Shown here piece by piece: positions 2,704-8,211 of a stretch of 40,590 nucleotides of DNA; the first letter of the stretch is position 1, and the number at the start of each line of letters is the position of its first letter. Made by a program: the position numbers and the translations under genes. Origin of the DNA: Akkermansiaceae bacterium. Lineage in GTDB: Bacteria; Verrucomicrobiota; Verrucomicrobiia; Verrucomicrobiales; Akkermansiaceae. Under the pieces are notes generated by a model that made no database searches, was not told the origin of the DNA, and saw only the letters and a list, made by a program, of their open reading frames with translations. The DNA lies in contig JAQWSX010000031.1 in assembly GCA_029242935.1 (NCBI GenBank), forward strand, positions 1-40,590, read 5' to 3'.

Positions 2704-4197
2704 CTAACTCAAGACTTCCTTCACCACCTGGCCATCATCGGTTGGCCCAATCAGACGCTGATTGAGTCCTTGATAGGAAAAGTTAAAGCGATGAGGATCG
2801 AGACCAAGCAGATGGAGAATAGTCGCCTGTAAATCCCTGACTCCGACTGGGTTCTCTCCAATATAGTAGCCAATATCGTCGGTTTCTCCGTAGGCTCCAG
2901 GCTTGATCCCCGCTCCCGCCATCCACATCGTGAAAGCATGGGGATGATGATCACGACCGTAATAGCCAGGCTTAAGAGTCGAATTAACATTGTTCTGCAT
3001 CATGGGAGTTCGGCCAAATTCCCCGCCCCAAACAATGAGTGTTTCCTCAAAAAGCCCCCGCTGTTTAAGATCCTTGATAAGACCTGCAATAGCCTTATCG
3101 ATCTGCTGGCACTTAATCGGGAGAGTCTCATCGATCGACTCCCCGGGCGATGACCCGTGGTGATCCCACCCCCAGTCATAGAGCTGCACAAAGCGGACAC
3201 CATTCTCGACGAGGCGTCGCGCCAACACACAATTGTTAGCGAAAGTAGGATCATCTCCTTTATATAGTCTCCGCGGATCGGCAGCCGTCTCAACATTGGA
3301 AACAAATCCCGGCTTGGCCCCATAAAGGTCGAGAACATGCTGCGGCTCTTTCCCGATATCCATCACTTCGGGAACCGACATCTGCATCCGGTAAGACAAC
3401 TCATATTGCGCAATCCGAGTAAGCGTCTCCGGATCACCGATGTGTTGGTTTTGATATTCGTTAAGATCTCTCAGCGCATCCAGGGTTTTCCGTCGGGCCT
3501 CGCGGCTCATCCCTTTCGGGTCGGAAAGGTAGAGAATGGGATCTCCACCGTCGGTTCGACATTGCACGCCTTGATAGAGAGTCGGCAGAAACCCAGATCC
3601 CCATAGCGATTTTCCCGCGCTGGGAGTTTTTCCGCCGGAGGCAAGGACAACAAAGCCCGGCAAATTCTTGTTCTCACTTCCCAAGCCATAGTTCACCCAC
3701 GACCCCATCGAAGGATAGCCCAATAATGGGTTCCCCGTTTGTAGTAACAACTGAGCCGGCGAGTGATTAAATTGATCGGTGTTCATCGAGCGGATGACAC
3801 AAACGTCATCAATCACCGAACTCAATCCCGGCAAAAGGTCACTGACCCACTGTCCGCTCTCACCACGCTTTTTGTAGTCAAAAACTGGCCCCATCATTTT
3901 GGGCGTTCCCTTGATGAAGGCGAAACGCTTCCCCTTAAGATATTCCTCGGGACAATCCTTACCATGGAATTTTGTCAAAGCGGGCTTATGCTCAAAAAGA
4001 TCGATCTGCGACGGCGAACCCGCCATGTGCAGATAAATGATCGACTTGGCCTTCGCCGGAATTTTAACACCCTTCCCAAAGCCACCTTTTTCTTCTGCGA
4101 GCAATTGGTTCAGCGCAAGAGCACCAAATCCTAAACCAGTCTGACCAAAGAAATGACGACGAGTCTGAGCACGGGCTTTTTCGTAATGAAAATTCAT
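2704..4197 (-). CDS. DUF1501 family protein (sulfatase-like fold, Tat-type export)
   Basis: A 497-residue protein of the DUF1501 family, which has an alkaline phosphatase/sulfatase-like fold and is abundant in Planctomycetes and Verrucomicrobia. Visible marks are an N-terminal twin-arginine segment (TRRHFFGQTGLGFGALAL), an early 'YLHMAGSPSQIDLFEHKP' block, a central 'WDHHGSSPGES' block and the family signature GGEFGRTP. The C-terminus has the usual 'ATILHLLGLDP' block. Its ATG overlaps the stop of the upstream DUF1549/1553 gene by four bases (ATGA), so the two are translationally coupled. This pairing is very common in the group. The enzymatic activity is not established. Confidence 0.9.
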   Translation of the reverse strand: MNFHYEKARAQTRRHFFGQTGLGFGALALNQLLAEEKGGFGKGVKIPAKAKSIIYLHMAGSPSQIDLFEHKPALTKFHGKDCPEEYLKGKRFAFIKGTPKMMGPVFDYKKRGESGQWVSDLLPGLSSVIDDVCVIRSMNTDQFNHSPAQLLLQTGNPLLGYPSMGSWVNYGLGSENKNLPGFVVLASGGKTPSAGKSLWGSGFLPTLYQGVQCRTDGGDPILYLSDPKGMSREARRKTLDALRDLNEYQNQHIGDPETLTRIAQYELSYRMQMSVPEVMDIGKEPQHVLDLYGAKPGFVSNVETAADPRRLYKGDDPTFANNCVLARRLVENGVRFVQLYDWGWDHHGSSPGESIDETLPIKCQQIDKAIAGLIKDLKQRGLFEETLIVWGGEFGRTPMMQNNVNSTLKPGYYGRDHHPHAFTMWMAGAGIKPGAYGETDDIGYYIGENPVGVRDLQATILHLLGLDPHRFNFSYQGLNQRLIGPTDDGQVVKEVLS

Positions 4198-7043
4198 GGT
4201 TTTGTCAGAGTTTCGTCGAGATTCAGAATAACGTTTGCCACCGACACCATCGCGGCATCGCCCTCCTTAAGGCCTGCGGATTTCAGGAGTTCATCAGCTG
4301 CCTCCGGAGTGTCTGTGTAGTGTTTATCCATTGTGTCATAAAGAGCCTGCAAACGGACTAATTCCCTACTCGATGGAGATCGAATAAGAACCACTCGGAA
4401 ACCATGCTCCAAACTCTTCATCTTTTTAGAAAGGGCTCCCGCCGCCTCAAGAAAAGTAGGATCATTGAGAGTAATCAATGCCTGTAGCGGAGTGTTAGTT
4501 CGGATTCTCCGGATCTGGCAAACCTCGCCGGAACCGGCATCAAAAGTCGTCAACGCTGGATAAGGACTAGTCCGTTTTAAGTAAGTGTACACCCCCCTGC
4601 GATAACGATCCTGCCCCGTAGCATCCTTCCATTTCTCGCCACTATATGTGGATTTCCAAACTCCAGGCGGTTGAGGAGGCATCACTGATGGTCCACCAAG
4701 CTTTTGGGTCAGGAGGCCAGAAGTCGCAAGCGCCTGATCGCGCACCATTTCGGCGGAAAGCCGGAAACGCGCGCCCCGAGAAAGCAGAGCATTGCGTGGA
4801 TCCTTCGCCAAACGATCGGGCGTCACCTTGGAGCTCTGTTGGTAAGTCTTCGACAGCACTATCGTCTTCAGAAGGCGCTTCAAAGACCATCCCTGTTCTT
4901 GATAGCCCACCGCGAGCCAATCGAGTAAATCGGGATATGTTGGCACGGCTCCCTGCATGCCAAAATCTTCTTCGGTCTCAACGATTCCTTTTCCAAAAAG
5001 CCGTGCCCAGATTCGGTTTACCATCACCCGCGCAGTCAAGGGATTCTCGGGATGCGTCAACCAACGGGCAACCCCGAGCCGATTGCCTGGAAACCCTTCG
5101 GGTAAAGAACCAAACATTTCAGGCAAACGTTCCGAAACAACCTCCCCTTGATCGAGAAAATTTCCTCTTTGATGAACCTTGGTCACCCGGCGACGATTTG
5201 CAGAAAGCTCCCGCATGATCGGAGTGTTAGGAATCGCTCGCCTCACTTGTTCGAGTTCCGTTCTTACTGCCACCACACGAGTATTCATCTTCCGGGTCGG
5301 CTCATAAACCTGGGTGACAAAAACTGACTCCAATCCTCCCTTCGCATCAACCTCTGCTTCCAACCACTTCGAAGGAAGGCGGCTCACCGAGACCTTAAAA
5401 TTTTCAAAGATCAGCCCCTGCCCATATTCCTGCTCGAGCGTTAGCCGGAGCTGACCACCCGCAATCGATTTATCAAAATCAAAAACCGCCACGTGGGGTG
5501 CCGCTGCCATGGGGGAAAAAGCCCATCCGGCCTTCGTGCTTCCATCAATTGCCTTCGCCACTTCCCAGCCTTTCTGCGAAAAATCCGCACGGGGATTGGT
5601 TAATCGGAGCTTCCGGGGTTTTTCTCCTTCAATAATGAGCTCGGCCGTCAACTCCCGCAGCGCAACGTTCTTGTCCTTCCACTTTCCACCCGGCTTTTTG
5701 GTCAGCGCGGCAATTCGGAGCGCCGTCACCGATTGGCCGGACGGAAGATCAAAAGTCAAAACCCAAGTATCCTTTTCCGGAAGTTCCCCTTTAACCGTTA
5801 GAATGCCATCAGCACGCTGTTGCAACTCTGCCGCCTTCGTTTCCTGACTCCGGAGACGAAGCGGACTCCAAAGTGCCCCTTCCCCGATCTTCGTTTTCCA
5901 CTCTAAAAACGCAGATTGAAATTCTTTCGGCCTCTCTTTTACCTTCTTCTCCAGATCTTTAATTTCCGTTTCCAGATCTTTGATCTCCTCACGTTGTTTC
6001 TTGGTCGGAGTCGCCATCACTGGTGAGCCTCGGTCGGCATCTTCGGTTTGATTGAAGAAGGCGTAAAAAGAATAGTAATCTTCGAGGCTGACTGGATCAT
6101 ACTTGTGAGTATGGCATTTCGCACACCCCATGGTGAGCCCCATCCAAATTTGCATCGTGGTATCGACTCGATCCTTCACTGCTGCCACCCGAAACTCCTC
6201 GTCATCGGTTCCACCTTCGTCATTTTCCATCGTGTTGCGATGGAAAGCTGTCGCCAAAATCTCATCGACCGTTGCATTCGGCAAAAGGTCGCCTGCCAAT
6301 TGCTCCGTAGTAAATTGGTCGAAAGGCATGTCGGCATTCAGAGCGTCGATGACCCAATCCCGATACCGCCAGATATTACGACCCCGGTCCTTCTCATACC
6401 CCTTGGTATCGGCATAGCGCGCCAAATCGAGCCACATCCGGGCCCAATGTTCCCCAAAAGCTTCTGAGTCCAAAATCCGATCAACAAGCTCTTTAACATC
6501 ACCTGATTTTTGAAACTGTTCTGCCTCTTCCAAGGTGGGAGGAAGCCCTGTTAAATCAAGAGTTAACCTCCGAATCAAAGTGTAGCGGTCCGCCGGCTCC
6601 GACATTTCAAGCCCCACTTCCTTCAGCCGTTTGGAAACAAAATGATCGATGGCGTATTCTCCCCCGGGAACGACCTGCTTCTCCGGTTTCTGAAACGACC
6701 AGTGCTCGTCATAGGGCGCACCAGCCGTCACCCACTTCCTTAAGATTTCTTTTTGCGCCCCTGTTAGTTGATGCCCCGAGTCCGGTGGCGGCATCAAATC
6801 GTCTTCGTCATCGGTCTCGATCCGGTGGATCAACTCCGGATCATCCCCCGGCTTGAGTGCTTTCTTTGCCCCCTCGGCGGTATCTAACCGCAGCTTCCCC
6901 TCGCGGGCCTCTTGATCCGGACCATGGCAGGAGAAACAATTCGCAGAAAGAATCGGACGAACATCTCGATTAAAATCCAAATCGGCATTCGCCCCTGCAA
7001 TTGAGAGGACTAAAACAGAAACGAGGGCAGATCTAGGAAACAT
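4194..7043 (-). CDS. PSCyt1-DUF1549-DUF1553 secreted cytochrome protein
   Basis: A 949-residue exported protein. A signal peptide ends near ANA at residue 20. It is followed by a PSCyt1 (planctomycete cytochrome C) domain with CFSCH at residues 36-40. A DUF1549 (PSCyt2) domain spans about residues 115-340 and carries a second CxxCH (CAKCH). A coiled-coil stretch rich in Glu/Lys lies near residues 348-375. A carbohydrate-binding-like middle region precedes the C-terminal DUF1553 (PSD1) domain ([19 protein letters not shown]). This architecture is standard for Planctomycetes/Verrucomicrobia and forms a pair with the downstream DUF1501 gene through a four-base overlap. It is presumed to work in periplasmic polysaccharide or sulfated-glycan metabolism; no direct function can be read. 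Confidence 0.9.
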
Positions 7044-7102: not shown

Positions 7103-7315
7103 CTAAAAAAGAGCGGTAGCCTCTCCGGGAAGTGGGAAGTGCCCACTTCTCTCCTTCTTCCAAATCACGTCGCCGTCCTGGCGAATCTCAAAAATCCCGC
7201 CACTTCCCCCAACCAAAGTCACCTTTTCTCCAGAAGTTTCCTCAATTTCAGCCGACACACGGTCGGCTTCAGGACGGTAATTTCATTGCTCGCAATACTC
7301 GATTTCAATCGCCAT
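7103..7315 (-). CDS. SelW/Rdx-like selenoprotein, UGA (Sec) at codon 11
   Basis: A 70-codon frame with one internal TGA at 7285-7283 is an almost textbook member of the Rdx (SelW/SelT/SelH-like) thioredoxin-fold family. Residues 1-11 read MAIEIEYCEQ followed by UGA, which puts selenocysteine exactly at the second redox position of the CxxC/CxxU motif. Further family marks are N-Y-R-P just after it, GGSGGIFEI at residues 36-44, DG at 47-48 and a terminal 'KKERSGHFP' block. These are the positions conserved in bacterial SelW-like proteins. A GC-rich hairpin 15 bases after the UGA fits a bacterial SECIS. The start is the ATG at 7315; no Shine-Dalgarno sequence is visible. The function is probably redox on thiols. 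Ordinary gene callers would miss the gene because of the UGA. No selA, selB, selC or selD lies in the window. Confidence 0.88.
7251..7267 (-). promoter_or_regulatory. candidate bacterial SECIS hairpin of the SelW-like gene
   Basis: On the minus strand GCCGAC and GTCGGC form a perfect six-pair stem closing a five-base loop (CGTGT). There are 15 bases between the UGA and the foot of the stem. The second loop base is G. Known bacterial SECIS elements sit within roughly 16-37 bases of the UGA measured to the loop G and need a G in the first two loop positions; here that G is the 23rd base after the UGA. This matches the rule, but SelB binding is inferred. Confidence 0.7.
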
Positions 7316-7725: not shown

Positions 7726-8211
7726 TTAGTGCATGAGCTCGGCCCGCCAGTCATCGTGATCCTTTCCACAAAAATCGTCCTCACCTTCTGAAGTCTTCAT
7801 TTCGTGAAGGACTTCTCTTACTTCACGATCTTTCCTGCGAAAAAAGACCTTACTAAAGGCATATCGGTTGGAAGCCAGAAGGCGGCAAATCCCCACCGCC
7901 ATGGCCAGCAGCGCTGGCTTTGCAAGCCGACGGGCCAGATTTCTGTAATGAGCGCAACTATAAAGACACCACACCCAGGCTTTAGCGCCCCTATAAATTG
8001 TCCCCTCGTCTGTTCGGACGATCATTTCACGGCTGGGATCAAGCGTCCCTATTCCCGGAAATTTTTCTTCGGCTGCCGGTGATTGATACGGAATAAAGAG
8101 AATGTCAAAGGCCCGCGCCTGACGATTAATCCATTCGTGAAAGGTGCAGCACATTCCGCAGCGACCATCATAATAGACCTCAATAGATTTCACATGAATT
8201 GGGAGGTTCAT
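7726..8211 (-). CDS. DUF393 (DCC family) thiol-redox protein
   Basis: A 161-residue protein of the DUF393 or DCC family, predicted thiol-disulfide oxidoreductases. The family signature YYDGRCGMC begins near residue 13, with Cys18 and Cys21 as the presumed redox pair and an additional Cys22. The following 'FIPYQSP' and 'GAKAWVWCL' blocks also fit the family. A hydrophobic stretch near residues 100-118 may touch the membrane. It lies downstream of the GbsR-like regulator on the same strand with a 93-base gap. That gap carries a degenerate copy of the palindrome found in front of the regulator, which suggests shared control. Substrate is unknown. Confidence 0.85.
   Translation of the reverse strand: MNLPIHVKSIEVYYDGRCGMCCTFHEWINRQARAFDILFIPYQSPAAEEKFPGIGTLDPSREMIVRTDEGTIYRGAKAWVWCLYSCAHYRNLARRLAKPALLAMAVGICRLLASNRYAFSKVFFRRKDREVREVLHEMKTSEGEDDFCGKDHDDWRAELMH

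Follow-up and report, generated by a model that had tools for sequence, protein, structure and literature searches.

SelW-like proteins with a CxxU redox motif are a known and abundant class of bacterial selenoprotein (PMC2398784, PMC1794560, in the portions of both papers available to us). In those same portions, SelW-like (PF10262) is the largest family by number of sequences in the GOS marine data (PMC2398784), and Sec-using organisms are described as having few or no Cys forms of it (PMC1794560). Some epsilonproteobacterial SelW genes were missed in annotation, according to the accessible text of PMC4607533. The prokaryotic reviews of 2022 and 2026 give SELENOW-like proteins as CxxU in their available sections, the latter with one Sec, and the available part of PMC7539508 describes UxxU SELENOW in amphioxus and Ostreococcus lucimarinus.

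The gene considered here occupies positions 7103–7315 on the minus strand of a 40,590-nucleotide stretch from a Verrucomicrobiales bacterium (contig JAQWSX010000031.1, hereafter the window). It shares with the bacterial CxxU SelW-like proteins, as far as the available text describes them, the Rdx domain, the CxxU motif, and a predicted Sec at the second redox position. It differs from them in detail only; its subgroup is 63–86% identical internally and 30–49% identical to the other NYxP-type subgroups that were aligned. We are almost certain that this is a working SelW/Rdx selenoprotein gene, in which the UGA at codon 11 is predicted to be decoded by the Sec pathway.

Re-reading the coordinates bears out the frame proposed by an earlier, sequence-only reading of this DNA, namely a minus-strand frame with exactly one internal stop. 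The gene starts with ATG at 7315–7313, carries the UGA at 7285–7283 (codon 11), and ends with a TAG stop at 7105–7103 that lies within the span. The translation is MAIEIEYCEQ-(UGA)-NYRPEADRVSAEIEETSGEKVTLVGGSGGIFEIRQDGDVIWKKERSGHFPLPGEATALF-(TAG), which amounts to 70 residues with Sec at 11. The redox motif is C8-E-Q-U11 (CEQU), with UGA at the second redox position; the 59 open codons beyond it, and the family marks GGSGGIFE, DG, and FP, are also present as had been stated. When the UGA is taken as a residue, the protein matches Pfam Rdx PF10262 at 2.3e-17 and 63.4 bits, over the cut-off of 22.6, and TIGR02174 at 52.8 bits, over the cut-off of 34.2, further supporting the SelW-like/Rdx assignment made from the letters alone. 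Against SelTWH_Campy, NF041051, an equivalog model for epsilonproteobacterial SelW, the window protein has the same length and architecture and aligns over positions 1–68 of 70, but its 76.5 bits fall below the curated cut-off of 88, and it is therefore not filed under NF041051.

The best PDB sequence matches are solved bacterial SelW-like proteins, with 2fa8 at 2.8e-11. An AlphaFold2 model of the window protein (pLDDT 88.3, pTM 0.75) contains a strand at residues 3–8 followed by a helix at 14–28. Foldseek searches with this model return 2fa8 as the best match (TMq 0.87, 39% identity) along with 3dex, 2ojl, and 2p0g. In this thioredoxin-like fold, the CxxU motif follows the first strand. Mouse SelW, 2npb, is a weaker match (TMq 0.65).

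A single internal stop could also reflect a pseudogene or one codon misread in sequencing, and a truly decayed relative copy does exist, in genome G098, with TAA and TAG stops in addition. The distribution of the UGA argues against this reading. Rdx matches at E 0.001 or better are found in 49 of 144 genomes, the source genome included, and each of the 49 has one such match with an in-frame TGA. There is one TGA in 45 of them and there are two in three (G046, G106, G109), G098 being the remaining one. The recurrence of a UGA-bearing match in 49 genomes upholds the earlier contention that the placement of this stop is beyond chance. The translation was viewed in 43 genomes, again counting the source genome, and all of them have the UGA at the second redox position; six others (G015, G018, G037, G045, G049, G122) are represented by table rows with one TGA and lie outside these 43. 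Among 18 same-genus sequences, pN/pS after the UGA is 0.213, which likewise speaks against decay. Synonymous change in the same sequences is lowest over the 13 codons that follow the UGA, where pS is 0.568, as against 0.952 in the 10 codons before it and 0.754 and 0.795 further on. The decaying copy in G098 (L097, G098:C26:19315-19506) shows the appearance of a real pseudogene of the SelW family; its genome retains selA.

The sequence-only reading had also suggested looking for Cys homologues at codon 11 in relatives, and none occurs among the orthologues viewed. A Cys-type paralogue accompanies the UGA-type SelW in three genomes (G037, G049, G071). Across a broader sampling of the phylum, NF041051 matches are found in 48 of 387 genomes, eight with one TGA and 40 without a stop. 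Of these 40 Cys forms, 22 were viewed; they read CxxCRW in 19 cases and CxxCRF, CxxCNW, and CxxCHW in one case each. None of these 22 is of the NYxP type; they belong to another subgroup. A match over the NF041051 cut-off is seen in just one of the 387 genomes. Since the window protein also falls under that cut-off, genes of this kind may be missed by annotation. What emerges is a Sec-using lineage whose small SelW falls below the cut-off of NCBI's specific model.

Downstream of the UGA, on the minus strand at 7250–7268, lies a bSECIS hairpin, in which 7268–7262 pair with 7256–7250 around the loop CGUGU (7261–7257); the bare hairpin has a computed energy of -10.4 kcal/mol. The limits given for bSECIS elements in the accessible part of PMC13188914 are a loop of 3–9 nt, a stem of 4–16 bp, G in the first two loop positions, a distance of 16–37 nt from the UGA, and an MFE of -7.5 or lower. 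With a loop of 5, a stem of 7, G second, 21 nt, and the energy above, the window hairpin lies within every one of these limits. The same design, a 7-bp stem and a 5-nt loop with G second, starting 14 nt past the UGA, is common to 27 sequences (26 distinct). All 27 hairpins have the G; as bare 19-mers, 21 reach -7.5 kcal/mol and six miss it. A 48-nt stretch containing the window hairpin folds with a z of -2.92, and two of 200 shuffles fold as well.

Across the 27 sequences, 96.7% of the hairpin cells are paired, as against at most 47.8% in slid controls, and RNAalifold predicts the same helix. The covariation score is 0.447, compared with 0.170 in shuffles, none of 500 scoring as high; the cells with two-sided changes and the further pair types also exceed all 500 shuffles. 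Two-sided changes are seen in four of the seven pairs, a count that 78 of the 500 shuffles reach. Placed on the reading frame, three of the four pairs that covary link one third codon position to another. This covariation, together with the shared UGA and the selection downstream of it, leaves the pseudogene or single-codon error very improbable.

A functional selenoprotein gene in this organism implied, in the earlier reading, a working selenocysteine system. That implication holds for selA, selB, and a Sec-type selD, all found in the source genome; selC was not found in its assembly. The selB match (contig C131) scores 312.5 bits against a cut-off of 242.25, and selA (C163) scores 480.8 bits against 267.9; both frames are without internal stops. 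The selD match (C149) scores 384.5 bits against 125 and carries one in-frame TGA of its own. In this gene (L049, G000:C149:64935-65861), the UGA falls at CGGU in the context ELASCGG-(UGA)-ASKLGQAEL, a position that we take to be the usual Sec/Cys site of SelD. Across the 144 genomes searched, a selA match is present in all 49 that bear SelW and in 21 of the 95 that lack it. Conversely, SelW occurs in none of the 74 selA-less genomes (Fisher P 4e-22, a value inflated by shared ancestry).

Searches for tRNA-Sec in the source assembly, which is 85.5% complete, with a covariance model and by BLAST with a congener's gene, did not find it (best BLAST E 0.24). Ten sub-threshold matches were considered as selC candidates, and the eight scanned by ARAGORN are all ordinary tRNAs. 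In a search of 25 genomes, a tRNA-Sec match over the Rfam cut-off is present in 17. ARAGORN, applied to 15 loci, called 13 as tRNA-SeC(UCA) and two as tRNA-Ser, one of the latter from a match over the cut-off. Among congeners, tRNA-SeC(UCA) was recovered in 12 of the 15 searched. Congener G008 has no tRNA-Sec match despite having SelW and selA; of the other two congeners without one, G001 lacks both SelW and selA, and G011 has selA only.

The absence of selC from the source assembly could mean that the gene was lost recently, leaving a selW that is intact in sequence yet no longer decoded. Had the genome been complete, its lack of selC would have indicated a pseudogene according to the sequence-only reading. 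Because the assembly is 85.5% complete and divided among 219 contigs, this condition is inapplicable here. The selC context varies among congeners, and an attempt to place the source genome's own selC by synteny failed. The selC neighbours of two congeners, which we take to be YjeF-like in G003 and DNA-polymerase-like in G004, were likewise not found in the source assembly, by a search without a positive control there, a result that suggests an assembly gap. With the open selA and selB frames also standing against it, we consider a recent loss of selC most unlikely. In two other genomes, the assembly breaks at selC itself, the contigs of L061 and L060 (G004, G013) ending 2 and 12 bases past the Rfam tRNA-Sec match. 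That UGA is instead read as Trp or Cys, through an altered code or by a suppressor tRNA, would fit the frame being open under such a reading and the failure to find selC in the source assembly, but is scarcely credible given that under table 11 no internal UGA interrupts window ORFs of 949, 785, 497, and 409 aa, that the UGA codons fall on redox positions, that the genome has selA, selB, and a selD with a UGA of its own, and that a hairpin follows the UGA.

Decoding of the window gene as a selenoprotein would thus proceed by established steps. SelA and SelD, whose genes are in hand, would make Sec-tRNA, and SelB, bound to the hairpin that starts 14 nt past the UGA, would deliver Sec at codon 11. 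The predicted product is a 70-residue thioredoxin-like protein with the redox site Cys8-x-x-Sec11, which most likely cycles between the selenol/thiol and an intramolecular selenenylsulfide and would serve as a small redox carrier. This redox role is the most likely one on the basis of family resemblance.

The gene neighbourhood is conserved only among some close congeners and therefore gives no function. Downstream of selW in the window are a PSCyt1/PSCyt2/PSD1 gene at 4194–7043 and a DUF1501 gene at 2704–4197. In a comparison of 37 loci, PSD1 adjoins selW in L044, L082, L083, and L085; L090 has matching genes upstream, but PSD1 was not found within 5 kb downstream. An operon of selW with PSD1 and DUF1501 was considered and set aside, the neighbours being kept only in some close congeners, and we claim no functional link. 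A scan for a promoter and a terminator at selW gave consensus matches only. Upstream on the same strand, at 7726–8211, is a gene for a DCC1-like thiol-disulfide oxidoreductase with CGMC; L082 and L083 have it at a different distance from selW.

While CxxU SelW is well known in bacteria, relatives of the window gene include a form that a specialist might not expect. Three loci (L022, L034, L078) read Y-U-G-M-U-N-Y, so that the first redox residue would be Sec too. A scan for the pattern UxxUNYxPxA, with one genome per species, gave 30 stretches, of which 19 encode an Rdx protein (L128, L129, L133–L135, L137, L138, L141, L142, L145–L152, L154, L156) and 11 look like chance matches. All 17 UxxU proteins scanned directly exceed the Pfam Rdx cut-off, and L133 and L154 are covered by their identical copies L022 and L034, both Rdx matches. 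L135, which is partial because it ends at the edge of its stretch, reaches 25.2 bits over 28 residues. The 19 loci fall in 18 genomes, of which 15 carry the label Verrucomicrobia, a subgroup of it, or Rubritalea. The remaining three are labelled Chloroflexi (L137), Planctomycetota (L147), and Gammaproteobacteria (L149), and these could be mis-binned contigs. L141 and L152 are on two contigs of the isolate CPC300 and encode the same UxxU protein, as would result from duplication or redundant assembly. The UxxU genomes G046, G106, and G109 have selA.

The UxxU genes have a hairpin as well, with 96.3% of its cells paired. None of 500 shuffles comes up to it in paired cells, in two-sided cells, or in covariation score; 105 of the 500 reach its number of two-sided pairs and 92 its number of further types. 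By column count, the first UGA is 31 nt and the second 22 nt ahead of the start of the loop. Both values fall inside 16–37, and one hairpin is within the usual distance of both codons. On the energy limit the group is marginal, since only five of 18 bare 19-mers reach -7.5 kcal/mol; nine are at -7.2 or -7.3. An internal start at GM, ahead of the second UGA, was considered and rejected, as genes reading UQQU, USKU, UTQU, UGQU, and UGVU lack that ATG and the residues preceding the first UGA are conserved. It is very probable that bacteria use a UxxU SelW, in which a single hairpin serves the decoding of two UGA codons that lie two sense codons apart, giving a possible diselenide site.

Two Sec residues in the redox motif are also what the available text of PMC7539508 describes for amphioxus and Ostreococcus lucimarinus SELENOW, the window gene being CxxU. 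Those proteins are eukaryotic, whereas the UxxU relatives found here are in bacterial records and have their hairpin inside the coding region. In the passages covered by a whole-word literature search for UxxU, a bacterial UxxU SelW is not mentioned. Together, the relatives form a natural CxxU/UxxU series within a single protein about 70 residues long, and hence a simple system for the effect of a second Sec and for one bSECIS serving two UGA codons.

The tree of these proteins (62 rows, 71 columns) is weakly resolved. Left out of it were duplicate records of the same genes (L078, L079, L080, L082, L083, L102, L103), L028 (from G021, its protein being that of L025), L152 (which repeats L141 in isolate and protein), the truncated L135, the decayed L097, the Cys-type rows, and the six genomes represented by table rows; two genes are entered twice, as L022/L133 and as L034/L154. 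The clade of the window protein is CxxU only (31 rows, support 100/99). The tree needs five changes to account for the UxxU forms (4–5 in bootstraps), and perhaps these arose by several separate Cys-to-Sec changes; the well-supported branches force only one, and we therefore claim no number of origins. Finally, in L149 a 448-aa ORF on the SelW strand ends about 55 nt before the UxxU SelW ATG at 1139. From its motif, judged by eye, we take this ORF to be like glutathione reductase, which is a hint at the reductant.
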